Notes under the pieces: model-generated
Databases searched by the model: none
The model's input: only the letters and a program-made list of their open reading frames with translations
Told to the model about the DNA's origin: nothing
Translations under genes and position numbers: made by a program
NCBI GenBank assembly: GCA_001314715.1
Contig: LJSV01000016.1
Location: 1 to 54,532, forward strand
DNA: 54,532 nt
Source of the DNA: Rhodobacteraceae bacterium HLUCCA12
Lineage (GTDB): Bacteria > Pseudomonadota > Alphaproteobacteria > Rhodobacterales > Rhodobacteraceae
Reading direction: 5' to 3'
Shown here: piece by piece, positions 10,678 through 51,889 of the stretch
Position numbering within the stretch: the stretch's first letter is position 1
Layout: every line of letters starts with the position of its first letter

Positions 10678-10814
10678 CCGGCGGCAACCTCATCGCCCTT
10701 CGCAGTCTGTGAACCCTTGGAAACGACCAAAGGCCCATTGCCCCCAGGCGTCGTGCGGCGTAATTGCGAGGCGGGGGTTACCCCCGGCCCCGGAAACAGA
10801 CCAAGGAACGCACC

Positions 10815-13642: not shown

Positions 13643-13645
13643 CCT

Positions 13646-34158: not shown

Positions 34159-34935
34159 TCAAGCAAGTTGCGCCGCTTTCGCGGCGAGGTCGGTAATCAG
34201 CATGTGTCCCGGCGCATGGGTGATTGCCAGGTCCGGGGCGGCATGGGCGATCGCGCGTTCAAGCGAGACGCCACAGGCCCAGAAGACCGGAACTTCGCCC
34301 GGCGCGATGTCGCATAACCCGATCCCGTCGATCGGGCGCGACAGATCCACGCCGATACGCGCCGGATCGCCAACATGCACCGGTGCCCCATGCGCCATCG
34401 GATGCGCCTGCGTGATCGCGCGGGCCATGTTGACCTGATCTTCGCGCACGGCCCGCATCGAGACCACCAGATTGCCGCCGAACGGCCCCGCCGACGTCAT
34501 CGGAATGCTGGTGTCAAAGGCCGAACAGGTCGCGCCGGGCGCATGGCAGCGCAGCGCCACCCCCGCCGCCACCAGATCGGCCTCGAAGGTCAGCGAACAG
34601 CCGATGGCAAAAGGCACGAAATCGTCACGCCACAGCGCGGTGACGTCGGTCGGGGTATCAACGGTCATGCCGTTGCGAAACACACGATAGCGCGGAAGAT
34701 CGCTGCGCAGGTCGATGTCTTCGCCCAGTTTCGGCAGTGACGGATCGCCCGGATTCCCGCGCGCCAGCAGCGGAAAAGGGGCCGGATTGGCGCGCAAGAA
34801 AGCCTCGAACGCATCGGCAAGGCTGGCAGGGATAATCGCCAGATTGGCCTGCACAAGCCCCGGCGCCATCGAACCCGTGGGCCCGTTCAGACGCCCCGCG
34901 CGCGCCTCCAGTCGCATGGACCGCCCCGCGCTCAT
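34159..34935 (-). CDS. DUF1445 putative hydro-lyase (D-glutamate cyclase-like)
   Basis: A 258-aa cytoplasmic protein of the DUF1445/PF07286 family. Recognisable parts are GLVQANLAIIP, the LPRYRVFRNGM strand, FVPFAIGCSLTFE and a C-terminal HAPGHMLITDL. Family members are labelled putative hydro-lyase; mammalian D-glutamate cyclase is a distant relative. The reaction here is not established. It overlaps the SRPBCC-like gene upstream by ATGA and lies 22 bp before the amino-acid binding protein gene, so it belongs to the cluster B operon. Confidence 0.85.
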   Translation of the reverse strand: MSAGRSMRLEARAGRLNGPTGSMAPGLVQANLAIIPASLADAFEAFLRANPAPFPLLARGNPGDPSLPKLGEDIDLRSDLPRYRVFRNGMTVDTPTDVTALWRDDFVPFAIGCSLTFEADLVAAGVALRCHAPGATCSAFDTSIPMTSAGPFGGNLVVSMRAVREDQVNMARAITQAHPMAHGAPVHVGDPARIGVDLSRPIDGIGLCDIAPGEVPVFWACGVSLERAIAHAAPDLAITHAPGHMLITDLAAKAAQLA

Positions 34936-35445: not shown

Positions 35446-35530
35446 AATCAAGCGATTTTTTTCAGGCTTAAAGCATTTCCGGCACGAATGCGCCGGAATT
35501 CGGCTTCCGTCCATTGTTCTTGATCAAAAT

Positions 35531-35541
35531 TCGTATACTGA
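35531..35541 (+). promoter_or_regulatory. second GTATAC site overlapping the GntR gene promoter
   Basis: TCGTATACTGA repeats the core of the palindrome at 35434-35445. It includes TATACT (35534-35539), a good -10 hexamer, 38 bp before the GTG start of the regulator gene. Binding here would block the regulator's own promoter, implying autorepression. No convincing -35 box was found. Confidence 0.5.
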
Positions 35542-35576
35542 TACCTTGGAGATATTGCAGCACAGAGCCGGAACCC

Positions 35577-36239
35577 GTGGCCCGTCAGAACCATCGCACA
35601 CGCATCTATCAGGCGTTTCGCAGCCGCATCCAGCGTGGCGAAATCGGCCCCGACGATCGCTTGGTCGATACCGTCATCGCAGCCGAACTTGGGGTGTCGC
35701 GGATGCCGGTGCGCGAAGCGCTGATGCAATTGGCCAGCGAAGGCTATCTGGAAGGCACGACGCGCGGTTTCACGCTGCCCAGCCTGGGCCACGCCCGGAT
35801 TATGCAGATCTTTACCCTTCGCCGCCTGCTGGAACCGCACGCCGCGGCGCTGGCTGCGCAATCGCGCAGCGACGTGCAAATGGACGCCATGTCCGAGGCC
35901 GTCGCGGACGCGGTTCAGACCCTGGAAACCGGCGACATCACCCAGTTCTACCGTGCGTCCGAGATCTTTCGAAATACATGGCTGGGCGCGGTGTCGAACA
36001 TTGAATTGCGCCAAACCATCCTGCGGTATCTGGCGCAGGTGCAATCGGTGCGGTTCGCCACGATGCAGGACCCGGTTGCTCATCGCGTGATCGTTGCCGG
36101 GCAGCAGGAGCTGCTGGATCGCTTTGCCCACGGGGACGCGGTCGGCGCCGGTGAGCGGATGCTGCGTTTCGTGCTGGAGGCCGAACAAAGCTACCTGCGT
36201 CTGAGCCGCGCCGATCAGTCGGCCCTTACAGCCGGCTGA
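35577..36239 (+). CDS. GntR-family regulator, FCD subfamily
   Basis: A 220-aa transcription factor. The N-terminal winged helix reads RTRIYQAFRSRIQRGEIGPD and LGVSRMPVREALMQLASEGY; the C-terminal all-helical FCD domain (about 85-215) binds a metabolite, usually an organic acid, and often a metal. GTG 35577 is chosen because it opens right before the winged helix; a weak AGCCGGAA lies upstream. It is divergent from the nine-gene cluster B operon, and GTATAC sites flank the shared region, so it is the likely repressor of that operon. Confidence 0.88.
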   Translation: MARQNHRTRIYQAFRSRIQRGEIGPDDRLVDTVIAAELGVSRMPVREALMQLASEGYLEGTTRGFTLPSLGHARIMQIFTLRRLLEPHAAALAAQSRSDVQMDAMSEAVADAVQTLETGDITQFYRASEIFRNTWLGAVSNIELRQTILRYLAQVQSVRFATMQDPVAHRVIVAGQQELLDRFAHGDAVGAGERMLRFVLEAEQSYLRLSRADQSALTAG

Positions 36240-38111: not shown

Positions 38112-38960
38112 TCAGCGGCTGTAAGCCAGCAGCATCAGGCGCGTCGCCTCGGTCGCCGGCATCCCGTCATGCACGCCCGCGCGCGCTGCCGCGTCGTTGT
38201 GGGCCGAAACGATCCCGTCGCGATAGGTGCTCATGCCGTCGCCGATCCGGGCGCTGTCGGTGGACACGGCCGCCCCCGGCACGCCGGTCTCATCCAGAAC
38301 GGCCAGACCGGAAATCCCCGACCGGTCCTTGCAGAGACCGGCATCATTGCAGACGACCCCGGCCAGATCGAACCGCGATGAATAGGCCGCTGAGGTTCGC
38401 CCGAAATGCGACCCCGCGCAAACGACGCGGGCACGATGTTCGGTGGTGATGAAGGTCACGGAACCCATGGCCATCACCTTGCCCTCGGGGCCGTCATAGG
38501 CGACCTCGCAAGGCTTGAAGACCTCTGGCAAAACACGCCAGCGTTCCAGCATGCGCCGCGCGGCATCCCTGATCGGCATACCCGCCACGATGCCAAGCAG
38601 GGCCGCGCTGTCATTACAGCGATCGACGACACCGTTTTCATACATGTCCTGTCCATCGGCGATCCGGCACGACATCGTTTCGGCCGTGGCACCCGGAATG
38701 CCAAGGCCCTCAAGCGCGAAAAGTCCGTTCTCTCCGGCGCGGTCCAGGCCCGGCCCGGCGGCATGACAGATGACGCCCTTGGGATCGACGCGCAACGGCC
38801 AGCGGATCGACAACATGCCGCAAAAGGATGCCCCGACCAGAACATCCCCGCTGTTGTTGCGATGATCCGCAAACGTGATCGAGTCCATCACGATGATGCG
38901 CCCATATTCGTTTTGGGTCACGATGTCCTGTGGCGCGGGCACCGGCTTGATTTCATCCAT
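38112..38960 (-). CDS. duplicated-unit protein of unknown function, copy A
   Basis: A 282-aa soluble protein with no signal peptide that I do not recognise. It is made of two homologous units, residues 20-138 and 160-277. Shared landmarks in order are: GRIIVMDS versus GKVMAMGS; GVICHAAGPGLDRAG versus GVVCNDAGLCKDRSG; GIPGATAETMSCRI versus GVPGAAVSTDSARI; DGQDMYENG versus DGMSTYRDG; and the close DAARRML versus EATRLML. A paralogue with the same plan lies at 45799-46665 in the same operon. Conserved Asp, Asn, Arg and Gly residues suggest an enzyme or ligand-binding protein. GGAGGAG precedes ATG 38960. It is the last gene of cluster C, 18 bp after a TRAP permease. Confidence 0.75.
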   Translation of the reverse strand: MDEIKPVPAPQDIVTQNEYGRIIVMDSITFADHRNNSGDVLVGASFCGMLSIRWPLRVDPKGVICHAAGPGLDRAGENGLFALEGLGIPGATAETMSCRIADGQDMYENGVVDRCNDSAALLGIVAGMPIRDAARRMLERWRVLPEVFKPCEVAYDGPEGKVMAMGSVTFITTEHRARVVCAGSHFGRTSAAYSSRFDLAGVVCNDAGLCKDRSGISGLAVLDETGVPGAAVSTDSARIGDGMSTYRDGIVSAHNDAAARAGVHDGMPATEATRLMLLAYSR

Positions 38961-38978
38961 TCTTTCTCCTCCAGCGGG

Positions 38979-40307
38979 TCAGTTCATTTGCGCCGGCAAC
39001 CAGGTGACAATGCCGGGAAAGGCGAAAAGCACACCAAATATGATCAGGTCGATTGCCACGAAGATCGTGAGGCTGCGAAACACCTGCTCCAGGCCGCCGC
39101 GCCCGACGAGGTTTGCGACGATGAAGGCGTTGACCCCCACCGGCGGCGTGATCAGGCCGATCTCGATCATCTTCACGGTCAGGATCGCATACCACAGCCC
39201 GTCGAAACCCAGTTCCGTCACCACGACCGGATAGAACAGCGGCACCGTGATCAACTGGATCGACACGCCATCCAGGATCATTCCCAGCGGGATGAGCGAG
39301 GCAAGCATCAGCAGCACCAGAAGCCCCGGTGGCAGATTGAAGCCAAGCACCCAGTCCGCGAAATCGCCGGGCACTCCGGCCGAAACCAGGAAATATGAAA
39401 AGATGCTGGCGCCGACCAGAATCGCAAAGACCATCGACGACAGCGAAGCCGTGCTTGACAGCGCCTCCTTGATCGCCGGAAGGAAGGCCAGTTTCCGTGC
39501 CGCGACGCTCAGCAGCAGCATCAGCAACGAGGCCATCGCGCCAATCGCCGCCGCCTCGGTTGCGGTTATGACGCCCGAATAGATGCCCCCGATCACGATG
39601 ACGAAAAGCACCGCGAGCTTGACGATGCCGCCATAGGTCCTGGCGCGTTCGGCGGGTTGCGCGGCCTCAGCGGCGCGGGCCACGGCAATGTCGAAGCCAA
39701 AGCCAAGGCGTGCCAGAACCAGCACGCCGATTGCCATGATCACCGCCGACACAAGGCCGGGGACGATGCCCGCCAGAAGCAGCGCCCCGATCGACTCGTT
39801 CGAGATGATCCCGAACAGGACCAGCGCAATCGACGGCGGGATCATGACCCCCAGCGTCCCGGCCGAGGCCACAAGTGCCCCGGCGAACCCGCCTGAGAAC
39901 CCGTAACGTCGCATCTCGTCGATGGTCAGCCGGCCCACCGTCGCCGCCGTTGCCACGCTTGAGCCGCACACGGCCGCAAAGCCGGCACAGGTAACGATGG
40001 TGGCCACCGCCACGCCGCCGCGCACAAAGTGCAAGGCGCGATTGGTCAGGCGAAACAGATCCTCGGCCACGTTCGCCTGCATGGCAAACATGCCCATCAG
40101 GATGAACATCGGCACGACCGTCAGGGTAAAGGACGACGTGGCCTGGAACGGCAGGCTGGCCAGCGTCGCGCCGGCCACATTGGTACTGCGCAGCAGCACA
40201 AGCCCCAGAACTCCGCTGCCGGCCAGACAGAAAGCGACCGGCACCTCCATCGCCAGAAGGACGACAAGCGCAAGCAGAACCATGAGTAGGATCAGTTCGG
40301 TGCCCAT
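38979..40307 (-). CDS. TRAP transporter large permease (DctM), cluster C system 1
   Basis: A 442-aa inner-membrane transport subunit with about twelve helices. DctM features are LLALVVLLAMEVPVAFCLAGSGV, PMFILMGMFAMQANVAEDLF and MIPPSIALVLFG. It is 7 bp after its small permease. Together with 40315-40833 and 40888-41958 it forms one complete TRAP importer, and a second complete importer is encoded at 48384-51224 in the same operon. Confidence 0.94.
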   Translation of the reverse strand: MGTELILLMVLLALVVLLAMEVPVAFCLAGSGVLGLVLLRSTNVAGATLASLPFQATSSFTLTVVPMFILMGMFAMQANVAEDLFRLTNRALHFVRGGVAVATIVTCAGFAAVCGSSVATAATVGRLTIDEMRRYGFSGGFAGALVASAGTLGVMIPPSIALVLFGIISNESIGALLLAGIVPGLVSAVIMAIGVLVLARLGFGFDIAVARAAEAAQPAERARTYGGIVKLAVLFVIVIGGIYSGVITATEAAAIGAMASLLMLLLSVAARKLAFLPAIKEALSSTASLSSMVFAILVGASIFSYFLVSAGVPGDFADWVLGFNLPPGLLVLLMLASLIPLGMILDGVSIQLITVPLFYPVVVTELGFDGLWYAILTVKMIEIGLITPPVGVNAFIVANLVGRGGLEQVFRSLTIFVAIDLIIFGVLFAFPGIVTWLPAQMN

Positions 40308-40314
40308 TGCTGCC

Positions 40315-40833
40315 TCAGAAATACCCTTCGTTCGGTTCCGCGCTGTCGTCGCGACCCGCGATCAGGTCGCGGATGCGGTCGGCCATGTCGGACAGGATCG
40401 ACAGGGCAAAGGCCGCAAGCCCGATCGGGATCGCGGCGCGCGCAGGCCAGACCGGCACCTGAAGCAGACCGAACCGTATTTCGCCCCGGACATACGCGTG
40501 CCAGGCGCCTTGGCCGGTGGCCCAGATCATCCACCCAACCAGCGCCAGCAAGATCGCGCGCCCCAGCAGACGAACACTGGCGCGCGGGCGCACGGGCAGC
40601 GCACGGGTGCAAATGGTCACCGCCACATGCTCGTGCCGGTGATAGGCGAAGGCCATGCCCAGAAAGACCAGGGCGACCACGAGTTGTTCGCTGATCTCCT
40701 GCGCACCCGGAACCGACCGGCCGGTAAGCGCGCGCGTGGCGACATCCGCGACCGTCATGCCCATCATCGCCACGATGCACAGCGCCGCGACGATGGCAAA
40801 CAGGGTGGCGATGGATCGGATCAGGCGTTTCAT
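40315..40833 (-). CDS. TRAP transporter small permease (DctQ), cluster C system 1
   Basis: A 172-aa four-helix membrane protein: GMTVADVATRALTGRSVPGAQEISEQ and the loop HRHEHVAVTICTRALP mark DctQ. ATG 40833 is taken as start because GGTGA precedes it and the first helix follows at once. It is separated from the binding-protein gene by a perfect 10-bp hairpin (40853-40879). Confidence 0.9.
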   Translation of the reverse strand: MKRLIRSIATLFAIVAALCIVAMMGMTVADVATRALTGRSVPGAQEISEQLVVALVFLGMAFAYHRHEHVAVTICTRALPVRPRASVRLLGRAILLALVGWMIWATGQGAWHAYVRGEIRFGLLQVPVWPARAAIPIGLAAFALSILSDMADRIRDLIAGRDDSAEPNEGYF

Positions 40834-40852
40834 GGCGTCACCATTGCGGGCC

Positions 40853-40879
40853 GGGGCCGGCAGGCTGTTTGCCGGCCCC
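40853..40879. other. perfect intercistronic hairpin after DctP gene, system 1
   Basis: GGGGCCGGCA pairs over all 10 bp with TGCCGGCCCC around a 7-base loop, in the 54-bp gap between the DctP stop and the DctQ start. Its place suggests differential stability or expression in favour of the binding protein. Confidence 0.75.
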
Positions 40880-40887
40880 ATCCTTCA

Positions 40888-41958
40888 TCAGCCGCGCTCG
40901 GCGCAGCGGTTCACGCCCGAGACGTAATCGACCTCTTCCTCGTACATGGCCAGTGTCTCGGTGTATTCCTCAAGGAAACTTGCCGCATCCACGCCACGGG
41001 CCTCGGCGGTTTCAACCCAGTCCTGCACGATGCTGTCGCCGACAGCCTCGCGAATCCGGGCAATGTCGTCATCGGGCAGAACGCTGACGGTTCCGCCGGC
41101 ATCAAGGATGGTCTGGCAGACTTCGTCCTCGGTTTCGGCAAGGTAGCGGGACACCGTATCCTGATACTCGGCGCTGACCTCGGTCAGGATCGACTGGATA
41201 TCCTCGGGCATGCTTTCCCAAAGGTCCAGGTTGATCGGCGTCGCCGCAAAGACGTAGTTCCCGGTGCCCGTCGACAGGGTATGCGGCGCGACCTCCTGCA
41301 ACTTGAGCGCGGTCACGACCTCGAAGGCGAAACCGGAATAGCCGTCAAGCGTATTGCGCAGCAAAGCCTCGTAAATCTCGGGCGCCGCAATGGCGACGGG
41401 GTTGGCGCCCACCGCCTCAAGCACCTGGTTCACATAGCCCAGCCCGCGAATGCGCATCCCCTCCAGATCGTCGAGCCCCTCAACGGGCTCACGCGTGCCC
41501 AGGATGTTCTCGGACAGCGGGTTGAAGAACAGCACATGCACATCGTTCGCGCGCCATTCCTGCCGAAAGGCCTCGTTGTTTTGGTAAAGGTCCATGAACG
41601 TGCGCATCTGCGCCTCGGCGTTCGAGGTCATGAACGGCACGCCGACGACGCTGGACAGCGGCAATTCGGCCGGGTGATAGGCGTTTGCCACATAGCCCAG
41701 ACTGGCACGCCCATCGCCGACGCCGCGCAGGATGTCGGTCGCGCCCAGCAGCGACCCGCTATAGAAGAATTCCACGCTGACGCGGCCCTCGGTGCGCTGT
41801 TCGACTTCGTCGGCCCACCATTCCTGGGCCCGGCTCTGTGCCGCCGCTTCGCCGATATAGCTGGCGAACTGCAATTCGAATTCCTGAGCCAAGGCCGGCG
41901 TGGCGGTGATCGAGCCCAAAGCCAGACCGGCGGTGGCGAGTGTGTAGAACGTCCTCAT
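40888..41958 (-). CDS. TRAP transporter periplasmic binding protein (DctP), cluster C system 1
   Basis: A 356-aa secreted protein: signal peptide ending TATPALA before QEFELQFASYIG. DctP fold features are GVGDGRASLGYVANAYHPAE, VPFMTSNAEAQMRTF, the ligand-contacting Arg in GMRIRGLGYVN, and LLRNTLDGYSG in place of the common GVVDG. GGGAGG lies upstream of ATG 41958. The ligand is probably a carboxylate that feeds the CoA enzymes of the operon. The C-terminus has an unusual acidic tail ending in VNRCAERG with a lone cysteine. Confidence 0.9.
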   Translation of the reverse strand: MRTFYTLATAGLALGSITATPALAQEFELQFASYIGEAAAQSRAQEWWADEVEQRTEGRVSVEFFYSGSLLGATDILRGVGDGRASLGYVANAYHPAELPLSSVVGVPFMTSNAEAQMRTFMDLYQNNEAFRQEWRANDVHVLFFNPLSENILGTREPVEGLDDLEGMRIRGLGYVNQVLEAVGANPVAIAAPEIYEALLRNTLDGYSGFAFEVVTALKLQEVAPHTLSTGTGNYVFAATPINLDLWESMPEDIQSILTEVSAEYQDTVSRYLAETEDEVCQTILDAGGTVSVLPDDDIARIREAVGDSIVQDWVETAEARGVDAASFLEEYTETLAMYEEEVDYVSGVNRCAERG

Positions 41959-41984
41959 TTTGGTTCCTCCCAGTTTGCGCGTCC

Positions 41985-42770
41985 CTACCCGTTATCGGGC
42001 TCGGGATCGCTGTAATCGGTGTTGTCCAGCACCAGATCCCAGATTGCCGGGGCCGCGGGCTGTTTCATTTCCTCAAGGACATGGCCGATCAGGCCGACCG
42101 TTCGCGCCACCAGCCCGATACCGCGCACCGCGCGCCAATCGAGCCCGATATCCGAAGCGATGCATCCGATCGCCGCGACGGCGTTGAAGGTCAGATGCTT
42201 GCCGCGCCGCGCGATGGCCGCGCGCTGGATCGCCAGCATCAGCCGGGTGTGGCTGTCGTCCAGGCCGTGCTCGGCCTGCATCTGCAAAAGCTTTTCGGAC
42301 CGCGGATCGATGCGGTGATGCGGGTGGCCAAGGCCCGGTATCCGTTTGCCCCGGCTCGCGTAATCGGCAACGATCGCCGCTGCGCGTTCATCATCGCTGC
42401 CGGGAAACGCCTTGGCCTCGACCTGCAACAGATGCGCGACATTGCTGGTCGGCCCGACAAACACATCGCCCGCCCCCAAAAGCCCGGCGGCGACCGCCCC
42501 TTGAAAACTTTCGGGTGCGCCCATGATCGTCAGGCGGCTGGCGATCACCGACGGCATCATGCCGTGCTCGGCAATCGCCACGATCATCGCGTTCAGCAGC
42601 GCGTTTTCGGCGGGGCTGGGCAAACGGCCCGTGACCTCAAGAAAGAACAGGGCCGCCGTGTCGATCCGGCCCATCAGTTCGGTGGTCAGATCGTGCCCGC
42701 GCACGGTGATCGTGTCGGCGGTCATCGTTGCCATGCTGCTCTTGATTCGGGTCTCTTGTGGATCGGTCAT
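41985..42770 (-). CDS. citryl-CoA lyase-like (citrate synthase fold) protein
   Basis: A 261-aa protein matching the small citrate-synthase fold found in citryl-CoA lyase and the C-terminus of ATP-citrate lyase. The family active-site histidine is in GLGHPHHRIDPR, and the later catalytic region is GLDWRAVRGIGLVARTVGLIGHVLEE. Its length is well below that of citrate synthase, as usual for citryl-CoA lyases. It most likely splits a 3-hydroxy-3-carboxyacyl-CoA into acetyl-CoA (or another acyl-CoA) and a 2-oxoacid. It overlaps the CoA-transferase gene by ATGA (42767-42770), which would supply the thioester. Confidence 0.87.
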   Translation of the reverse strand: MTDPQETRIKSSMATMTADTITVRGHDLTTELMGRIDTAALFFLEVTGRLPSPAENALLNAMIVAIAEHGMMPSVIASRLTIMGAPESFQGAVAAGLLGAGDVFVGPTSNVAHLLQVEAKAFPGSDDERAAAIVADYASRGKRIPGLGHPHHRIDPRSEKLLQMQAEHGLDDSHTRLMLAIQRAAIARRGKHLTFNAVAAIGCIASDIGLDWRAVRGIGLVARTVGLIGHVLEEMKQPAAPAIWDLVLDNTDYSDPEPDNG

Positions 42771-44575
42771 GGCGTCGGCTCCGCGTCCGGTCTGGCGTAT
42801 TCGAGAAAGTCGTTGCGGATGTCGAAAAGGCGCAGCCGCAGCAGGTCATCAGGGTCCGGGGCCGTCGCCACGCGCAGGGTATCGCTGATCTCGAGTTCCC
42901 AGCCGCAGCGCGACCGGATATGCGCGATCGTGGCGTCGCGATCCTCGCCCGCGCGTTCGAAATATTCGGTCAGGACCAGGCGGCCATCTTGCTTTTCATA
43001 GACCCCAAGGTCCGTGACCAGGGTCGAGACCGTTGCGCCGGGGCTGGTGATATACGGCAGTTCCGCCACAAGCCGGTGGCGTGACTGTTGCGACACAGCG
43101 ATCACGTCGGCGGCGGCCGAGGTGATGTCATTCGCCCCGCCAGACCCCAGAAGATAGCGGCCATCGCTGGTGCGCGTGGAATTGATATTTCCGGCCGGGT
43201 CGATCTGGCCCGAACCGATGATCGCGATGCAGTTGTTGTGACGCCCCCCGACCTGAAGGCCCAGGATCGCCTCGACCCCGGCCATCGACTTTGCGCTCGA
43301 CAGATTGCGATTGGAAAAGATGAAGGGTTCGCCGGGCTTCGGCATATAGCCATAAAGACCGATCTCGGCGACGAGTTCGGCATCTATGCCCTCTTCGTGC
43401 TGCAAGCGATGCACGGCCAGCCAGGCCGCGAGGTTGGCATAGCCGACACCCGCCTCAACGATCCGGCGCCCATCTTCGCGCACCTTGCGCGCGACCATGC
43501 GCGCGGCGGCAATCACCATCATCTCGCGCGCATCGTGGCCCTTGGTCGCGGCAAGGCGGTCCAGATCAGCCTGGGTGATACCATCCGCCCAGGCGTCACC
43601 CCAGGCGCGACCGCGCAACAGGTCAAGCCGGTCGGCGCCCAGCTTTTCCAGATAGGCGCCGTGGTCGGGAACATCCAGAATCCAGTCGCGCGTCCATTGC
43701 CGGAACAACGCGTCGTCGCGGATCGCGGCGCGGATGTCGTGAAACGCGCGCGCGTCCTCGACATAGGCCGGGATGTCGATATCGGTCGGGTTGTAGATCG
43801 CATAGGGATGGCAGCCCATCGGCGCGACCGACAGGCTCAACACCCGGTCGGCGGGGATCTTGACCAACGCAGGATGCCGCCGCAACTGGCTGGCCGGAAC
43901 GATGCGCTCGACCGTGGCGATTACGCCCTTGCGCGCGGCATAGGCCGCGATGTCGGCCTCGCCGAAGGGGGGCGACATCAGGATATTGCCAGCCTCGTCG
44001 GCCGCAAGGCCGTGAACGATGGTGATGTCGGGCACCAGCGCCGAAACCGCGCCGATTTCTTCGCCCGAACCGAAGGGATCAGGAATACGGCGATAGCTTT
44101 CGTTACGGGCCATCGAACTGTCGCGCAGCGAGCGCGTCAGTGCAAAGGGAAAGCCATGCGCACCGGCGGACAGGCGCTGGCTCAGCACCAGAAGCGAGTT
44201 GCTTTCGATCTCGACCGCGCCACTGTCGATTGCCGCCTGAAGCAGTGGGTTGGGTGCCGGTGTCGGATAGTTCTCGCCGACAAAGGACACGATCAGCCTT
44301 GAAACGATTTCTTCGGTCACCAGCGCGGTCTGATTGGCCACCAGACCCGAGGAAATGACGGTGAAGCCCGGTCGGGTGCCGGCAAAGACCCGCACAAGCG
44401 CGTTGCTTGCCGCCATCGGCCGCCCCTCGGAATAGCCGAAATGCAGCGTCATGCCGGGTTCGACATGGGCACGGATCGCGTCATCCAGCGCCATGACCTT
44501 CCCGCTTGGTCGTTCGGCGGGCAGGTCGAAGGCGCTGAGCAGCCACGCGCGGTCAAGTCGTGTCGTCGATGTCAT
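42767..44575 (-). CDS. fused alpha-beta class I CoA-transferase
   Basis: A 602-aa single-chain CoA-transferase containing both subunit types. Residues about 15-300 resemble the alpha subunit (AIRAHVEPGMTLHFGYSEGRP; PADRVLSLSVAPMGCHPYAIY), and about 345-600 the beta subunit (AGVGYANLAAWLAVHRL; ELVAEIGLYGYMPKPGEP; GSGGANDITSAAADVIAV). The Glu in AEIGLYG is the expected covalent CoA carrier. Most relatives (glutaconate, 3-oxoadipate, acetate CoA-transferases) are encoded as two genes, so the fusion is notable. It overlaps both neighbours by ATGA, and would convert an imported carboxylate to its CoA ester for the lyase-like enzyme. Confidence 0.87.
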   Translation of the reverse strand: MTSTTRLDRAWLLSAFDLPAERPSGKVMALDDAIRAHVEPGMTLHFGYSEGRPMAASNALVRVFAGTRPGFTVISSGLVANQTALVTEEIVSRLIVSFVGENYPTPAPNPLLQAAIDSGAVEIESNSLLVLSQRLSAGAHGFPFALTRSLRDSSMARNESYRRIPDPFGSGEEIGAVSALVPDITIVHGLAADEAGNILMSPPFGEADIAAYAARKGVIATVERIVPASQLRRHPALVKIPADRVLSLSVAPMGCHPYAIYNPTDIDIPAYVEDARAFHDIRAAIRDDALFRQWTRDWILDVPDHGAYLEKLGADRLDLLRGRAWGDAWADGITQADLDRLAATKGHDAREMMVIAAARMVARKVREDGRRIVEAGVGYANLAAWLAVHRLQHEEGIDAELVAEIGLYGYMPKPGEPFIFSNRNLSSAKSMAGVEAILGLQVGGRHNNCIAIIGSGQIDPAGNINSTRTSDGRYLLGSGGANDITSAAADVIAVSQQSRHRLVAELPYITSPGATVSTLVTDLGVYEKQDGRLVLTEYFERAGEDRDATIAHIRSRCGWELEISDTLRVATAPDPDDLLRLRLFDIRNDFLEYARPDAEPTP

Positions 44576-45441
44576 GAAACAACCTCATCGACGCGGATGC
44601 CAAAGACCTTCTCGGCCGCTCCATACATCAGCATTTCGCGCGCATCGGGCTTCAGGTCGATCCGGGCTACCTGTTGCAGGCTGTCCTGGTGGCGCACGAC
44701 CGGAAAGTCCGTGCCCCAAAGAACCTTGCCCTTGCCGCGGCTGTTGAGAAAACGCACCAGCGAGGCATCCCAGTATTTCGGGGCATGCGCGCCGCAACCG
44801 ATATAGAGATTGGGGTGTTTCCACGCCATCGCGATCAGTTCCTCGACCCATGGCCAGCCGGTGTGCGAGGCGACGATGCGCAGGTCTTCGAAATAGAGCG
44901 CGACATCATCCAGATGGATCGGCCGGGTCATCTCGGACGGCATCTTTTCGGCGGAATGGCCCGACTGGACGACGACCGGAATGCCAAGCTCGGTGCATTT
45001 GGCATAGACCGGGTAAAGCTCGCGGTCGTTCAGAGGAATGCCCCAGCCATTGGCATGGATATGGGCACCCTCGAACCCCCAGTCGCGCACCGCGATCTCC
45101 AGCTCCCTGACCGCCTGCATCCCCTTGGATATGTCGATGCCGAAAAGCCCGCCGACGCGCCCGCCGCATTCGGCCATCAACTCGCGCACCGAGGCGGCCT
45201 CGACATCCAGGATCGGGGCTCGGCGTTTCCAGCTTTGCATCTTGAAACTGGGCACGAAGGTCTTGACGATGCCCAGCTCGTCCATGAGTTCGACGAACGC
45301 CTTGGTCGTATATCCCTTGATCCTGTCGTCCATGCGCCACCAGTCGACGACCGGGGCCAACTCCTCGTTTTCGAGATACATCCGGCGCAGCCCCTCGGGC
45401 GTGAAGATATTGGTCCAGTAGTCAATCGCCTTGAACGTCAT
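44572..45441 (-). CDS. amidohydrolase-2 family protein without the N-terminal HxH motif
   Basis: A 289-aa amidohydrolase_2 (PF04909) protein, a family of hydrolases and metal-dependent decarboxylases of aromatic and other cyclic acids. The later metal or catalytic positions are seen: His in GAHIHANGWG, His in VVVQSGHSAEK, His in IVASHTGWPW and Asp in VLWGTDFPVV. The usual DxHxH near the N-terminus is replaced by AIDYWTNIF, so metal binding may be altered. ATG 45441 is used; an in-frame GTG at 45453 is an alternative. It overlaps the CoA-transferase gene by ATGA. A decarboxylase or lactone/amide-hydrolysing role is possible. Confidence 0.85.
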   Translation of the reverse strand: MTFKAIDYWTNIFTPEGLRRMYLENEELAPVVDWWRMDDRIKGYTTKAFVELMDELGIVKTFVPSFKMQSWKRRAPILDVEAASVRELMAECGGRVGGLFGIDISKGMQAVRELEIAVRDWGFEGAHIHANGWGIPLNDRELYPVYAKCTELGIPVVVQSGHSAEKMPSEMTRPIHLDDVALYFEDLRIVASHTGWPWVEELIAMAWKHPNLYIGCGAHAPKYWDASLVRFLNSRGKGKVLWGTDFPVVRHQDSLQQVARIDLKPDAREMLMYGAAEKVFGIRVDEVVS

Positions 45442-45458
45442 CGGAAAATCCACTTGCC

Positions 45459-45806
45459 TTATTTCGAAGCCGCCTCGTCATCCGGCTGTTCGACCGTGAG
45501 CTGATCGCCCAGCGCCTCGATCCCTTCGATGAAGGCGGTGAACCCGCCGGTAAGCGACGCCAGCGACAGGGCCTCGATCACCTCCTTGTCGGTTGCGCCC
45601 TGATACATCGCCTCGGAGCCATGGGTGCGAACCGACGCGCCGTAGCGAATGACCGCCGAGCAGGCCATCAGGATCAGTTCCTTGTATTTGCGTGGTATTT
45701 CACCTTCGGTGGCGACGCTGTGCACCACGTACTGGGTGATGATGTCGGCCGCCTTGGGGTCGATCTCGGCGATCACCTTGCGCCATTCGTACTTGCGCTC
45801 ATACAT
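45459..45806 (-). CDS. carboxymuconolactone decarboxylase (CMD)-family protein lacking CxxC
   Basis: A 115-aa helical protein of the CMD/AhpD family. The core is KYKELILMACSAVIRYGASVRTHGS in parts (YKELILMACSAVIRYG, RTHGSEAMYQGATDKEV). AhpD-type redox members have CxxC before the conserved His; here the segment reads YGASVRTH with no cysteine, so thiol redox activity is unlikely and a decarboxylase-like or accessory role is more probable. It overlaps the duplicated-unit gene by eight bases and precedes the amidohydrolase. The pair CMD plus amidohydrolase-2 recurs in aromatic-acid style pathways. Confidence 0.86.
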   Translation of the reverse strand: MYERKYEWRKVIAEIDPKAADIITQYVVHSVATEGEIPRKYKELILMACSAVIRYGASVRTHGSEAMYQGATDKEVIEALSLASLTGGFTAFIEGIEALGDQLTVEQPDDEAASK

Positions 45807-46665
45807 GTTCGGGTTCTCCTATTGCTGAGTGCCGGGCATTTTCGAGCATTCGGCGGGCGGCGCTGCGTGCGCTGTCCCCTTCCTTGATGCCGAGGGCGGC
45901 GGCCGTGCGGTTCAGCGCGCTGATGCGACCATCGAAATAGGTTGCGCGCGCATCGCCCATCCGTGCGGTTTGGACACTGACGGCGCAGGCCGGCATCGCG
46001 CTGGCGTCCAGCAGGCCAAGTCCTTCGATGCCGCTGTCATCGCGGGCGCGACCGGCGTCGTTGGTGATGACACCGGCCAGCGGATAGCTCATTTCACGGA
46101 CATAGTCCGCCATGGCCCGCGCCGCGTGCGAGCCCATGCACAGAACGCCCCCGGCGATGCGGTCATCGGCATATTTGACCGTATCCAGCGCAAAGACCGC
46201 CCCCAGCGCGTCGCGATGGACGCAGATTTGCCTGTGGGCGTTCGGGCGCGGCACCGGGTTGTGGTCAAGCAGGATTCGAGCAGCATCACGCACGGGCATG
46301 CCGGGGCTGATCCCCATGAGCGCGGCCGAGCCGTTGACGGCCGAAAGGATACCGTCCTCATACATGTTGCGTCCGTCCGAGATCCGCGCGGACATGCCCT
46401 CCACGGCGGCACCGGGGATCATGTAGGCATCCAGCAGCTTCAGCCCGCTGACCCCGCCGCGGTCACGGCCGATCCCGGCGTCATGCACGATCACCCCGCG
46501 CGGGCGCACCCAGGCCAGAAGCTGCGTCGCGCAGGCCGCGCCATGCGATCCGCAGATCAGAACATCGCTGACGTCGTTGCGTTCATCCACATAACCAACC
46601 GAATCCATGGCCAGGATGCGCCCGCGTGGTGAGGCATACACTTCGTGTTGCGGCCATGCGGTCAT
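45799..46665 (-). CDS. duplicated-unit protein of unknown function, copy B
   Basis: A 288-aa soluble protein, paralogous to 38112-38960 and likewise not recognised. Unit 1 spans about 15-133 and unit 2 about 155-274. Aligned landmarks are: GRILAMDSVGYVDERN versus GAVFALDTVKYADDRI; VLICGSHGA versus VLCMGSHAA; GVIVHDAGIGRDRGG versus GVITNDAGRARDDSG; GAAVEGMSARISDG versus ACAVSVQTARMGDA; and DAARILL versus SAARRML. GAGGAGG precedes ATG 46665. Its start overlaps the acyl-CoA ligase stop by ATGA, and its end overlaps the CMD-family gene by eight bases, so it sits in the centre of the pathway genes and is probably a pathway enzyme. No signal peptide. Confidence 0.75.
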   Translation of the reverse strand: MTAWPQHEVYASPRGRILAMDSVGYVDERNDVSDVLICGSHGAACATQLLAWVRPRGVIVHDAGIGRDRGGVSGLKLLDAYMIPGAAVEGMSARISDGRNMYEDGILSAVNGSAALMGISPGMPVRDAARILLDHNPVPRPNAHRQICVHRDALGAVFALDTVKYADDRIAGGVLCMGSHAARAMADYVREMSYPLAGVITNDAGRARDDSGIEGLGLLDASAMPACAVSVQTARMGDARATYFDGRISALNRTAAALGIKEGDSARSAARRMLENARHSAIGEPEHV

Positions 46666-48371
46666 GACGCGTCCTCCTCTTTCGTGATCAGTCCGGCGCC
46701 GGGGTCCGCATCGATTCTCTCGCGGGTCATGCGGATCAGATCCTTTTTCCTGAGCTTGCCGACCGGCGTTCGCGGCAGATCCTGCGCCGCGCAGAAAAAT
46801 ACCCGGCGCGGCACTTTCTGCGATGTCATCCGCGTGCGGACGTGGTCGGCAATGGCTTCGGCACCGGGCCCGCCAACCGGGTCGGCGACGATCCAGGCCG
46901 CCGGCAGATTGCCCATGCGGCGGTCTTCGACCGGCACGATATGGGCCTCGCACACACCCGGCATTTCTTCCAGATGCCGTTCGATCTCGGCGGGATAGAT
47001 GTTGAAACCGCCGACCGTAAACATGTCATCAACGCGACCGGTAATGTGCAAATACCCCTCATCGTCCAGAAACCCGACATCACCCGTATGAAAGAAGCCT
47101 TTTCGGTCGATCGCCTCGCGCGTCTTTTCGGGCATGTTCCAATAGCCCTTTCCAACGCAGGAGCCGGGCTGCGTATCACCCAGCAGGATTTCACCCTGCG
47201 CGCCCGGCTCGACATCGGTGCCGGTTTCAGGGTCGATGATGCGCAAGACCACGCTTTCCAGCGGTTTGCCCACGGTTGTCAGGCGCTTCTCGCGCGGATC
47301 GTCGGCGGTGGACACCGTCGAAAGGCCGCCGCATTCGCTGAGCCCCCAGGCCTGCATGATGCGATGCGCGCCCAGAACATCCAGAATGCCGCGCATGGTT
47401 GCATCGGTCAGCGGGGCACCGGCGACATGGCCGCCCCTCACGCTTGAAAGGTCGCGTGTGGCGATGTCGGGGTGATCCAGCATCATCTGAAACATCGACG
47501 GCGTGCCGGGAATGTAGGTGACGCCCTCGGACTCGATCAGTTGCAAAGAATGCCCGGCGTCGAACTGTTCCGTTATCACCACCCGCGCGCCGTTGCGCAT
47601 ACCCAGTGGCGCGCCATAAAGGCCGCCGAAATTCGTGAATAGCGGCACGTGGCACAAGATGACGTCATCGGGCCCCAGACCCGCCAGCTTTGACCATTGA
47701 TGCGTGGTGACAAGGTTGGTGACATGCATCGACATGCCACCCTTGGGAAAGCCCGTGGTCCCGGATGTGTACATGATGTTCATGACATCGAACGGCAGGA
47801 TCTGGCTTTGTCGCGCGATCAGCTCTTGCGGTGCGACCGTGGCGCCCCGCGCGATCACCGTATCCAGATCATGGCGGCTTTGCAGATCGACACCCTTGCC
47901 GACGCGAACGACATGGCGCAGGGACGGGATAGATTTGCTTGCAAATGACTCGGCCTTAGCGCTGTCCAGTTCGGGGATCGCCGCCCTGGCGATGGCCAGG
48001 GCATCGACCTTGCCAAGGAACTGGTCTTGCATGATCAGAACCGAAACCCCGGCCTGTGTCAGGGCATAGCTCATCTCGCTTTCGCGGTAATAGCTGTAAA
48101 GCGGAAGCAGGATGGCGCCGATCTTGTAGATCGCGAATTGGCAGATCACCCAATCGATGGAATTGGTCATGAAGATCGCGGCCACGTCGCCCTTTTGCAC
48201 CCCCAGCGCCAGCAGGCCGCGCGCCACGCGATCGACCTGTTCGCGAAACGCGCCATAGGTGATTGTCTGGCTGTCCATGGACAGGAACACGCGGTGCTCA
48301 TGGGTTTCGGCCTGCCGGTCCAGCAGCTCGGGCCATGTTGTCAGCGAGTCTTCGTACCAGTCTTGCAGCAT
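46662..48371 (-). CDS. AMP-forming acyl-CoA ligase
   Basis: A 569-aa member of the ANL superfamily that activates a carboxylic acid through an acyl-adenylate to its CoA ester. Motifs: P-loop YTSGTTGFPKGG (201-212), AWGLSECGG, the HTGDVGFLDDEGYLHITGR region and the adenylation lysine Lys539 in RTPVGKLRKKDL. Medium- or aryl-acid ligases have the same general layout, so the substrate cannot be told. It is 13 bp after the TRAP large permease and overlaps copy B of the duplicated-unit protein by ATGA. It works in a pathway that also has a CoA-transferase, implying two separate CoA activation steps or two substrates. Confidence 0.92.
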   Translation of the reverse strand: MLQDWYEDSLTTWPELLDRQAETHEHRVFLSMDSQTITYGAFREQVDRVARGLLALGVQKGDVAAIFMTNSIDWVICQFAIYKIGAILLPLYSYYRESEMSYALTQAGVSVLIMQDQFLGKVDALAIARAAIPELDSAKAESFASKSIPSLRHVVRVGKGVDLQSRHDLDTVIARGATVAPQELIARQSQILPFDVMNIMYTSGTTGFPKGGMSMHVTNLVTTHQWSKLAGLGPDDVILCHVPLFTNFGGLYGAPLGMRNGARVVITEQFDAGHSLQLIESEGVTYIPGTPSMFQMMLDHPDIATRDLSSVRGGHVAGAPLTDATMRGILDVLGAHRIMQAWGLSECGGLSTVSTADDPREKRLTTVGKPLESVVLRIIDPETGTDVEPGAQGEILLGDTQPGSCVGKGYWNMPEKTREAIDRKGFFHTGDVGFLDDEGYLHITGRVDDMFTVGGFNIYPAEIERHLEEMPGVCEAHIVPVEDRRMGNLPAAWIVADPVGGPGAEAIADHVRTRMTSQKVPRRVFFCAAQDLPRTPVGKLRKKDLIRMTRERIDADPGAGLITKEEDAS

Positions 48372-48383
48372 CGTTGCCTCGTT

Positions 48384-49670
48384 TCAGTCGCGCATCGTAG
48401 ACGGCAGCCATGTCGACAGCGCGGGGAACAGGTAGATCAGCAGCAACGCCACCATCGAGACCAGCACGAAGGGCAGAATGCTGCGCAGGATATCCTGAAT
48501 GCGGGTGTCCAGGACGCGCGCGGCGACGAACAGGTTCACCCCGACCGGGGGCGTGAACTGACCGATCGCCACCGCGATCGCAACAAAGACGCCGAACCAT
48601 GTCAGGTCGATATCCTGTATGCGCACAGCCGGGATCAGCACCGGAACGACCACCAGATAGATCGAGGCCCCGTCGATGAAGAGGCCGGCCAACAACAGCA
48701 CCACCGCCGCCAGTAGAAAGACCTGCCACTGGCTGTGGACCGCGACGGCAAAGTCGGTGATCCAGCCGACGACCTGCCCGTCGATCGTCAGAACCCACGA
48801 GAATAGCGAGGCGCTGGCAACGATGAAAAAGACGACGGCGGTGTCAATCATCGTCCGCCGCGCGATCTGGCCCAGATGGCGCAGACCGATCTCGCGGTAG
48901 ACGAAAAGCCCGACGATCAGCCCATAAAAGACGGCAACGCCTGCGGCCTCGGTCGGGGTGAAAACCCCGAAATAGATGCCGCCGACGATCACAAGCGGCG
49001 CACCCAGCCCCAGGATCGATCGGGCAAAGGCTGTGGACACGCCGCGCAGCGTCACGCTTCCTTCGCCCTGGTCGATACCCTGGTGCACGGCAATCGCCCA
49101 TGCACAGATCGCAATCAGGCAGCCCATCAGGATGCCGGGGATCAGCCCGGCTATGAACATCTCGCCGATCGAGACCCCAGGCACGGCGACAGCATAGAGG
49201 ATGAAGGCGATACTGGGCGGCATCACCAGCCCCAGCGCCCCGCCCGCGGAAATCAGCGCACCTGCCGAACCGCCGGAATAGCCCCGATCGCGCAGGATGG
49301 GCCCGACCGTCGCGCCCAGCGCGGCGGTGTCCGCCGGGCCGGAACCCGACAGCCCGCCCAAAAGCACGGCAACCCCGCTGGTCACGACCCCGGTGCGCCC
49401 GCGGACCCGCCCGACAAGGGAATCCACAAGTCCGAACAGCCGCCGCATGATGCCGCTGCGGTCAAAGACATTGCCGGCCAGGATGAAGAACGGGATCGCC
49501 AGAAGCTCGATCTTTTGCAACGACGAGAACAGAACCGGGCCGACGAAGCTCAGACTGCCTTCCAGGAGAAGCCCGCCCGCGACGGCGGCCGCCCCCAACG
49601 CGATCGCGACCGGAACATTGATGGCAAGAAAGATTGCCAGAAGGAGGAAAAGGGCGATTGTCGCGCTCAT
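48384..49670 (-). CDS. TRAP transporter large permease (DctM), cluster C system 2
   Basis: A 428-aa inner-membrane protein, about twelve helices: LLLAIFLAINVPVAIALGA, PFFILAGNVFDRSGIMRRLF, MPPSIAFILYAVAVPG, and the C-terminal GQFTPPVGVNLFVAARV. It overlaps the small permease gene by ATGA, and ATG 49670 is the start for that reason. It completes the second TRAP importer of the operon. Confidence 0.94.
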   Translation of the reverse strand: MSATIALFLLLAIFLAINVPVAIALGAAAVAGGLLLEGSLSFVGPVLFSSLQKIELLAIPFFILAGNVFDRSGIMRRLFGLVDSLVGRVRGRTGVVTSGVAVLLGGLSGSGPADTAALGATVGPILRDRGYSGGSAGALISAGGALGLVMPPSIAFILYAVAVPGVSIGEMFIAGLIPGILMGCLIAICAWAIAVHQGIDQGEGSVTLRGVSTAFARSILGLGAPLVIVGGIYFGVFTPTEAAGVAVFYGLIVGLFVYREIGLRHLGQIARRTMIDTAVVFFIVASASLFSWVLTIDGQVVGWITDFAVAVHSQWQVFLLAAVVLLLAGLFIDGASIYLVVVPVLIPAVRIQDIDLTWFGVFVAIAVAIGQFTPPVGVNLFVAARVLDTRIQDILRSILPFVLVSMVALLLIYLFPALSTWLPSTMRD

Positions 49671-50140
49671 ATCTTTCCGACCCCTGTCGGGCCCGGCACC
49701 GTGTCGACCTGCGTCAGGCTGCGCCATAGGGCGAGCGCCGCGCCAATGGGCATGAAGATCGCAACCGTCCAGAGCGGCAGATCCAGCAAGCCCGCGGTGG
49801 CGCCACTGGACATCTGACGCAGCACCAGAAGGATGCCCGAAAAGATCACGACACCATAAAAGGCCGCTATGACGGCCATGCGCAGATGGCGCGTGATGCG
49901 CTGCAACTGCCGCGGCAGGACCATGACAAGACTGTCCACACCCAGATGCGCCTTTTCACGCTCGGCCGTGGCGATGGCGACCCAATAGACGGCGATGCCG
50001 CCAAGGATCATCACCTCGAAAAGCTCGCCCAGCGCATGCCGGAACAGGTAGCGGGAGGTGATGCTGATCCCGTTCAGGACGACAAGCATGGCCAGCGCCA
50101 GTTCAAGAAAGCGGTATTCGATCGCGGCCAGTCTGCGCAT
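49667..50140 (-). CDS. TRAP transporter small permease (DctQ), cluster C system 2
   Basis: A 157-aa four-helix membrane protein with ISITSRYLFRHALGELFEV and the EREKAHLGVDSLVMVLP loop of DctQ. GGAGGTTCC precedes ATG 50140. A 76-bp gap with a perfect 11-bp hairpin separates it from the binding-protein gene. Confidence 0.92.
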   Translation of the reverse strand: MRRLAAIEYRFLELALAMLVVLNGISITSRYLFRHALGELFEVMILGGIAVYWVAIATAEREKAHLGVDSLVMVLPRQLQRITRHLRMAVIAAFYGVVIFSGILLVLRQMSSGATAGLLDLPLWTVAIFMPIGAALALWRSLTQVDTVPGPTGVGKI

Positions 50141-50216: not shown

Positions 50217-51224
50217 TTACTCGGAAACCGAATCCATCAGGTCCTCACCGATGATGGAGCGCCATTCGTCGTAGATCGGCTCCATCCGTTCGCGAAACAC
50301 GGCAATCTGTTCGGGCGACAGGGTCACGACCTCAAGCTCGCCCTCCAGCTCTGCCAGCATCTCCTCGTTGGCATTGGCCTGTTCCTCGCGGTGCCAGGCG
50401 GCCGCTTCGCGTGCGGCGTCGGCAAAGATCTCTTGCTCGGTCTCGCTTAGCTCGGACCAGAGATCGGCGTTGGTCAGAATCCCGATGGCATCGGCCGAGT
50501 AGTTCCAGATCGTCATGTAATCCTGGACTTCGTGGAAGTTGCTCACGTAAATCAGGCTGATCGGATTCTCCTGCCCATCAACCACGCCCTGCTGCAACGC
50601 GCCGTAAAGCTCGCCGAAACTGGTGGGCACGGGGCTGACCCCCATCTCGTTGAACACGGCCTGATACAGTTCCAGGCCCGGCACGCGCAGCGTCAGCCCG
50701 TCAAGATCGTCCGGCGATGTGATCGGGCGAACGCTGTTGGTCAGCTGCCGGAACCCGCTGGTCGAATACCCGCCAAGCGGGTGCACGCCGCGCTCTTCGA
50801 GGGCCGACCACACCTGTTGTCCGGGGCCGTCGATCAGGTCGAACAACTCACCCTCGGACGGGGCGACCCAGGGCAGTGAAAAGAGCGCGAACCGCGGGTC
50901 GATGATCGAGAGGATGATGCTGGAATGGAATGTGAAATCCACGGTGCCGTTCTGCAAGAGCTCGAACTCGGTCACCTGATTGCCATTGGACAGGACGCCA
51001 TCAGCAAAGACCCGGATCTCGATCCGGCCATCCGTGGCCTCGGCGACATTGTCGGCAAAACGTTGCGCGCCCTGCGTCCAGGGCGATTCCGCCCCGACCG
51101 ACATGGCAAAGCGCAGGCTGCGCTCGCTGATGTCGTCGTCTTGCGCCAGTGCCGGCAGCGCCGAGATCAGACCGATCGCTGCCGCACCCAGTGTGGCGCG
51201 CAGCGTAGTGATGCAGAATGTCAT
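50217..51224 (-). CDS. TRAP transporter periplasmic binding protein (DctP), cluster C system 2
   Basis: A 335-aa secreted protein: signal peptide ending ISALPALA before QDDDISERS. DctP marks are FSLPWVAPSEGELFDLIDG, the carboxylate-binding Arg in LTLRVPGLELY and GVVDGQENPISLIY. ATG 51224 follows GGGAGGAG; in-frame sequence upstream is not coding. It is 29 bp after the TetR gene and the first structural gene of cluster C. Its ligand is unknown but differs from system 1's, judging by divergence of the pocket-region sequences. Confidence 0.93.
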   Translation of the reverse strand: MTFCITTLRATLGAAAIGLISALPALAQDDDISERSLRFAMSVGAESPWTQGAQRFADNVAEATDGRIEIRVFADGVLSNGNQVTEFELLQNGTVDFTFHSSIILSIIDPRFALFSLPWVAPSEGELFDLIDGPGQQVWSALEERGVHPLGGYSTSGFRQLTNSVRPITSPDDLDGLTLRVPGLELYQAVFNEMGVSPVPTSFGELYGALQQGVVDGQENPISLIYVSNFHEVQDYMTIWNYSADAIGILTNADLWSELSETEQEIFADAAREAAAWHREEQANANEEMLAELEGELEVVTLSPEQIAVFRERMEPIYDEWRSIIGEDLMDSVSE

Positions 51225-51253
51225 GATATCTCCTCCCAGATAATACCCGATCG

Positions 51254-51889
51254 TCAGCCCGTTTTCGGAGAGACGCCGATTCCGTTCAGGACAAAGGCAA
51301 AGATCTGATCTTCGATCTCGTCCCAACGGGCATGAGTGGACAGATCCCACCACCGCAAAGCCACGATAGCCGGAACGAACGTCATCAGATTGGCCGCGAC
51401 ACGGCGGTTGCTGACAGCCAACGGGCCGACCGCCGCTTCGTATTCGGCAATCAGACGTTGAAAGGCGCCATTCAGTCGCGACACCGACTTCAGGATCTGG
51501 CGCCGATCATCTTTGGCCAGCGCGTGGGTCTCGTTATACAGCAGCACAAGCTCGTCCTTGTGCTGCAGCATGATGGCCAGGATCGCGCGCAGCCCCCCGA
51601 TCAGGCGCGCGTGCGGATCGGCGTGCTGTTCCAGAACCTTGGCCAGCCCCTCTTCGTAAAGCCCGACCAGGTGCTCGCAGACCAGATAGAGAATGTCGCC
51701 CTTGGTGCGGACATAGTTGTAGAGATTGCTTTGGGTCACATTGGCCTCACGCGCGATCATTCGCGTCGTGGCTTCGTGAAACCCATTTGCCCTGAACACG
51801 CGAATTGCGGCCTGCACGATGTCGTCGCGGCGCTGCGACACGAGGTCATGGTTGCGCACCTGGCTGTCGATCGACCGCTTCAAACCCAT
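51254..51889 (-). CDS. TetR-family regulator heading the cluster C operon
   Basis: A 211-aa TetR-family regulator. The recognition region is TRMIAREANVTQSNLYNYVR with KGDILYLVCEHLVGLY following; the C-terminal part resembles FadR/AcrR-like acyl-CoA-responsive regulators, which would suit a CoA pathway, though this is inference. GGGGAGGG lies directly against ATG 51889; a TTG at 51883 would be better spaced. It precedes thirteen genes on the same strand, and three palindromic operators with a sigma-70 promoter lie immediately upstream (51906-51974). It is most likely an autorepressor of the whole operon. Confidence 0.9.
   Translation of the reverse strand: MGLKRSIDSQVRNHDLVSQRRDDIVQAAIRVFRANGFHEATTRMIAREANVTQSNLYNYVRTKGDILYLVCEHLVGLYEEGLAKVLEQHADPHARLIGGLRAILAIMLQHKDELVLLYNETHALAKDDRRQILKSVSRLNGAFQRLIAEYEAAVGPLAVSNRRVAANLMTFVPAIVALRWWDLSTHARWDEIEDQIFAFVLNGIGVSPKTG

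Follow-up and report, generated by a model that had tools for sequence, protein, structure and literature searches.

Copies A and B and their units

A stretch of 54,532 nucleotides from Rhodobacteraceae bacterium HLUCCA12 (contig LJSV01000016.1, positions 1 to 54,532; the whole stretch is called the window) carries two related minus-strand genes, copies A and B, each encoding a protein of two similar units in tandem. The searches reported below argue strongly that A, B and their relatives form a separate family, undescribed in Pfam and NCBIfam. The two genes and their units are listed here; unit boundaries are approximate and derive from profile matches, for B also from hhalign.

38112..38960, minus strand: copy A, open frame for a two-unit family protein of 282 amino acids, 44% identical to B, last gene of its directon
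38547..38906, minus strand: copy A unit 1, about residues 19-138
38130..38489, minus strand: copy A unit 2, about residues 158-277
45799..46665, minus strand: copy B, two-unit family protein of 288 amino acids, ATG at 46665
46267..46623, minus strand: copy B unit 1, about residues 15-133
45844..46212, minus strand: copy B unit 2, about residues 152-274, containing H180 and D203

In BLASTP, A and B are identical at 120 of 274 aligned positions (191 bits), and unit 1 of A matches unit 2 of B (31% identity, 63 bits); neither protein gives an off-diagonal match against itself. Profiles of unit 1 and unit 2, built from 101 members filtered at 80% identity, align in hhalign over 118 columns with a probability of 100 and an E-value of 5.8e-47. 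The open frames, the identity between A and B and the alignment of the halves thus bear out the initial annotation of the window, which placed two internally doubled paralogues at these positions with a unit of about 118 residues. It had also described B as coupled to pathway genes on both sides, and this is confirmed: the start of B overlaps the stop of an acyl-coenzyme A (CoA) ligase gene by 4 bases, and its stop overlaps the start of a CMD-family gene by 8 bases.

According to the alignment and a structure model of B, the unit consists of a strand pair, a strand leading through GSHGG into a helix, a strand leading through NDAG into helices, a strand leading through SARIGD into a helix, a further strand and two helices. 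The motifs first proposed for the unit stand in outline and are looser than they were written, unit 1 of A having H-A-A-G instead of N-D-A-G. A further motif, G-S-H-G-G after a predicted strand, had been overlooked. The His of GSH and the Asp of DAG in unit 2 are constant in 129 of 129 two-unit rows, not all of which are distinct (some genes were fetched twice, and locus sets overlap, L061 being L102). The unit-1 His is kept in 94% of these rows; it is replaced by F in A, and by Y in the copies from Rhodococcus and Aminobacter and in a third paralogue on another contig of the window's genome (G000:C17:11275-12126, 38% identical to B). Copy A reads ASF in place of GSH in unit 1 and has GSH intact in unit 2, and B retains the His in both units. 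The GSHGG, NDAG and SARIGD loops may form an acid-base site that unit 2 invariably retains and that has degenerated in unit 1 of some proteins, A among them.

Relation to known families

The closest library family is DUF1805 (PF08827), for which we know of no function. Its model scores 26.3 bits with B and 21.7 bits with A, both under the gathering cut-off of 29.5, which is reached by one of ten other members (L176, 30.2 bits). DUF1805 matches at E<=0.01 occur in 48 of 59 members, and in eight of ten proteins, those with matches, the matched stretch is the second half of the unit. In a Foldseek search of the B model, 1qw2 was listed at a probability of 0.80 over 58 columns with a weak E-value of 0.48; we take it to be TA1206, of the same superfamily as DUF1805/YunC. 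The family is perhaps distant kin of DUF1805/YunC, from which it differs in that its unit is about twice the 64-position model and stands in tandem, and in that A and B fall below the gathering score.

A second resemblance is confined to a motif. The Pfam model IMS (PF00817, cut-off 23.2) is matched above the cut-off by A (26.3 bits) and by the protein at locus L102 (24.5 bits) and below it by B (21.3 bits), with matches at E<=0.01 in 42 of the 59 members. The match in A covers only model positions 31-58 of 148, about 30 residues. What is shared with the Y-family DNA polymerases is a short strand-helix-G-x-x-x-G-M-P-helix motif, and Foldseek likewise listed a polymerase eta motif of 33-52 columns. 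Membership of the Y family was rejected even though A passes the Pfam cut-off, the full catalytic domain and the remaining polymerase being missing from the family proteins. The IMS score of A is likely to yield a false annotation, and so is that of L102.

NCBIfam gave nothing for B and just two weak polymerase matches for A (E 0.0096 and 0.057). At E<=0.01 the 59 members match four Pfam families only: DUF1805, IMS, UPF0227 and 2CSK_N. A PDB sequence search with B alone returned no match, and one with a 59-row profile returned only short polymerase, flippase and glucanase matches (best E 0.014). Two candidates from the first PDB profile search were discarded: RecA concatemers, which owe their score to the addition of repeats whose individual i-Evalues all exceed 100, and DepH, matched over 35 residues only. 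The AlphaFold model of B, made from 59 sequences, has a mean predicted local distance difference test score (pLDDT) of 92.4 and a predicted template modelling score (pTM) of 0.66; given the latter, the arrangement of the units relative to each other is less certain than each unit by itself. Foldseek with this model against 350,542 PDB chains gave nothing at E<=0.001, nor did a viral structure library.

The initial annotation had made its proposal of an undescribed family depend on the halves aligning in a profile-profile comparison and on profile and structure searches finding no characterised relative. The halves do align, and Pfam, NCBIfam, PDB sequences and Foldseek yielded no confident match. 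The long frames at L058 and L074 were considered as fusion proteins and taken as over-long frames, having no Pfam domain at E<=1e-4.

Distribution and gene neighbourhoods

The family occurs in 4 of 18 genomes of the window's genus, 11 of 149 of its taxonomic family, at least 47 of 385 of its class and at least 6 of 398 of its phylum; the class and phylum counts are lower bounds, at most 6 candidates having been scored per genome. A plasmid collection contains 13 records that match B, from Rhodococcus, Aminobacter, Rhizobium, Methylovirgula, Ponticoccus and haloarchaea. A scan of named genomes with a main-branch query gave 229 relatives, the best 80 of which include Alpha-, Beta- and Gammaproteobacteria, Poribacteria, and planctomycete, spirochaete and SAR324 metagenome-assembled genomes (MAGs). 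The context survey that had been proposed therefore leads far beyond the window, and the undescribed family is not peculiar to this operon. Although roughly one sampled class genome in eight carries the family, and bacteria as well as archaea have it, it is nameless in Pfam and NCBIfam and has no close solved relative.

Within the family, A and B belong to a side branch. A tree of 95 units places unit 1 of A, B, the third paralogue and the Rhodococcus and Aminobacter plasmid relatives together in a single clade (0.902), and unit 2 of the same five proteins in a second one (0.908). The duplication is therefore older than the split of A, B and the third paralogue, which answers the question of order raised when the units were first described. 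The node bearing on a duplication shared by the window branch and the main family has low support (0.265). One-unit matches only were found in 5 of the 385 class genomes (G364, G456, G459, G533, G536) and in two other Pseudomonadota (G765 and G873). Alphaproteobacterial one-unit members of 131-137 amino acids (L072:9748-10143, L073:9786-10181, L075:9216-9629) lie near the unit-1 side of the tree. In G533 (locus L075) the gene is possibly split, since part of the other unit is weakly matched in a second frame. A planctomycete MAG contig, L175, has two family genes about 3 kb apart (9983-10792 and 13618-14430); the window has two within 7 kb.

Neighbourhoods were compared in 41 survey loci, hand-picked and mostly the best matches from genome searches rather than random, and in 80 named loci, the best 80 of the 229, which overlap with the survey loci. 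Neighbouring genes were called by guanine-plus-cytosine pattern, with some antisense false calls; locus counts rest on profile searches, and labels such as IclR, SDR and DctQ come from sequence reading, not family searches. Some family proteins as called begin 20-35 residues before the matched part, not at a start codon.

On the main branch the recurring set comprises an IclR-like gene, E1-alpha, E1-beta, tripartite ATP-independent periplasmic (TRAP) transporter genes, an acetolactate-synthase-type thiamine diphosphate (ThDP) enzyme and the family gene. At L102:1-10795 and similar loci these form an operon, E2 and E3 genes being absent from the stretch; it appears to serve the import and degradation of an acetolactate-like acid. 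The ThDP enzyme is present in 67 of the 80 named loci and 27 of the 41 survey loci, and all three ThDP-dependent genes in 57 and 23, respectively. Among solved structures, BbmA is closest to the ThDP enzyme, with acetolactate synthases behind it, and the best NCBIfam matches of the enzyme are under their cut-offs. Among the 385 class genomes, 35 have the ThDP enzyme (E<=1e-140), 47 the family (E<=1e-5) and 33 both (Fisher p 3e-34, without correction for kinship); the two genes lie within 10 kb in 26 of these 33 genomes and not in the other 7. They probably serve one pathway. The model of the module's solute-binding protein DctP (mean pLDDT 71.6) matches 4p8b (H16_A1328) at 55% identity. A 4p8b-like DctP occurs in 16 of the class genomes, 12 of them with the family; the family, ThDP and DctP searches are taken to cover the same 385 genomes, number and handles being in agreement.

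Other lineages have other neighbours. Of the five haloarchaeal plasmid loci listed, four were fetched; in each of them a RuBisCO-like protein and a four-carbon acid sugar kinase are encoded next to the family gene. At the one locus tested these are nearest OiaX (515.6 bits) and OiaK (441.4 bits), and a PF16896 protein follows 7 kb further on. This operon (L099:8205-18636; OiaX-like, OiaK-like, both below equivalog cut-offs, and a PF16896 dehydrogenase) possibly encodes an apionate-type pathway. 3-Oxo-isoapionate is a 2-hydroxy-2-(hydroxymethyl)-3-oxo acid, an analogue of acetolactate. After the Rhodococcus copy come genes for a ChsH2-type OB-fold protein, a CoA ligase and a thiolase-like protein; such genes also occur at the locus of the third paralogue, 5-8 kb from it and on the other strand. 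The Aminobacter copy has genes for a CoA-transferase and an HMG-CoA lyase in its vicinity. The thread shared by the neighbourhoods appears to be cleavage beside a tertiary carbinol, though not at every locus; the Ponticoccus locus has no neighbour of a C-C cleavage type.

In the window, A and B belong to a minus-strand directon running from about 51353 down to 38112, with a TRAP set, a CoA ligase, B, a CMD protein, an amidohydrolase, a CoA-transferase, a citryl-CoA-lyase-like enzyme, a further TRAP set and A. Genes assigned in it besides A and B are the following.

50217..51353, minus strand: second TRAP solute-binding protein, frame probably over-long at the start; best solved match 4p8b, E 6.4e-48, 7bbr close behind
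48384..49727, minus strand: second TRAP large permease (DctM-like), clusters with annotated TRAP large permeases
46662..48371, minus strand: acyl-CoA ligase (AMP-binding), 569 amino acids; PF00501, 278 bits
45459..45806, minus strand: CMD-family protein, 115 amino acids; PF02627, 37.8 bits, cut-off 23
44572..45453, minus strand: Amidohydrolase_2 protein, 293 amino acids; PF04909, 135.6 bits
42767..44575, minus strand: CoA-transferase-like protein, 602 amino acids; PF01144, 76.5 bits
41985..42770, minus strand: citryl-CoA-lyase-like protein, 261 amino acids; NF004868, 289.6 bits, cut-off 193
40888..41958, minus strand: TRAP solute-binding protein (DctP); PF03480, 139.9 bits; nearest solved 4n6d, 4pgn and 4nap
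38979..40307, minus strand: TRAP large permease (DctM-like), clusters with annotated TRAP large permeases

We take 4pgn and 4nap to be binders of indole-type acids. The ThDP module was rejected as the window's own pathway, its genome having no ThDP match at E<=1e-140; it has one E1-alpha, of 42% identity, on another contig. That the window operon is conserved was likewise rejected: relatives of the amidohydrolase, CoA-transferase and citryl-CoA lyase (E<=1e-15) are in no fetched locus except one from the window's own genome. The pairing of a B-like gene with a CMD gene recurs in two alphaproteobacterial loci, L066 and L071 (61% and 69% identity), which have no other window pathway genes, the L066 stretch being only 5.8 kb long. 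The window operon looks like a rare accessory, since among 264 genomes of the order a B-like match at E<=1e-40 was found in the window's own genome only.

Predicted function

The favoured reading, given a probability of about 0.3, is that the paralogues A and B belong to an undescribed tandem two-unit alpha/beta family of pathway-specific acid-base enzymes for branched alpha-hydroxy carbonyl acids. It is favoured because of the constant His and Asp, the co-occurrence with the ThDP enzyme, the 4p8b-like DctP, and the OiaX/OiaK-like and C-C cleaving neighbours. The ligand of 4p8b is taken to be (S)-2-acetolactate. In a review of TRAP transporters, 2-acetolactate is counted with the newly found ligands (PMC5812351). 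Judged by conservation and gene neighbourhood, the family proteins probably act as enzymes. Branched alpha-hydroxy carbonyl acids or their CoA esters (acetolactate-like) are proposed as the substrate class with moderate confidence; isomerisation or epimerisation as the reaction is a guess.

In the proposed mechanism, the GSHGG, NDAG and SARIGD loops would provide the acid-base site, kept in unit 2, for a ketol-type isomerisation or epimerisation that requires no organic cofactor. The isomer produced would fit the C-C cleaving enzyme of each operon. In the window this enzyme would be the CoA-transferase and citryl-CoA-lyase pair, which the TRAP transporters and the acyl-CoA ligase would feed. 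If the substrate class is correct, the function of the family and a breakdown route for acetolactate-like acids could be tested with few purified proteins. It is rather doubtful that the family is, beyond this, a new enzyme fold with which bacteria and archaea carry out such conversions of branched alpha-hydroxy-beta-oxo acids, one with no relation to ketol-acid reductoisomerase, and that it supplies the step missing from a widespread route for taking up and degrading acetolactate-type acids (TRAP, ThDP enzyme, E1-alpha/beta).

Several findings weigh against the favoured reading. The ThDP enzyme is not a fixed partner, because it is absent from 14 of the 47 genomes that have the family, including that of the window, and from the plasmid loci (ThDP enzyme 0/10, all three ThDP-dependent genes 0/10). 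The OiaX and OiaK matches are below their NCBIfam equivalog cut-offs (700 each), and at the CoA-ester neighbourhoods a keto acid is not demonstrable. The 4p8b-like DctP occurs without the family in 4 of its 16 genomes, and the DctP at 40888 resembles binding proteins other than 4p8b. 

Literature searches on 4P8B and H16_A1328, on apionate with RuBisCO-like proteins, on the function of DUF1805 and on BbmA/CsmA found nothing relevant among the papers listed, which does not establish absence from print.

The genes E1-alpha and E1-beta, each in 24 of the 41 survey loci, would also suit a decarboxylase or C-C hydrolase of 2-alkyl-2-hydroxy-3-oxo acids, an analogue of acetolactate decarboxylase that would turn acetolactate into acetoin for cleavage by E1-alpha/beta; E1-type enzymes of acetoin systems cleave acetoin, according to an excerpt on these systems (PMC12247030). 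Acetolactate decarboxylase and ketol-acid reductoisomerase would share the substrate class of the family if that is rightly proposed, but neither is among the Pfam matches of the 59 members or the Foldseek matches listed. The haloarchaeal loci already have an OiaX-like decarboxylase, and CoA-ester enzymes, not the E1 pair, stand at the window, Rhodococcus and Aminobacter loci, which makes this reaction unlikely. A lactonase, hydratase or tautomerase at a ring-opening or enol step common to the pathways has about the same low standing: SDR, VOC, FAH-type, dienelactone hydrolase, amidohydrolase and CMD genes recur nearby, but they vary between loci, and neither motifs nor fold point to such chemistry. 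Least of all is to be expected an accessory or regulatory subunit or substrate sensor, originally of the ThDP enzyme and no enzyme itself, since, for all that the family is in 33 of the 35 genomes with the ThDP enzyme and is often the next gene, 14 family genomes lack that enzyme, the constant His and Asp suggest chemistry, and the Pfam matches of the 59 members include no known small-subunit domain.

Just outside the directon, the window carries a D-glutamate cyclase / putative hydro-lyase family protein at 34159-34935 (PF07286, 155 bits) and, near it, a GntR-type regulator at 35514-36239.

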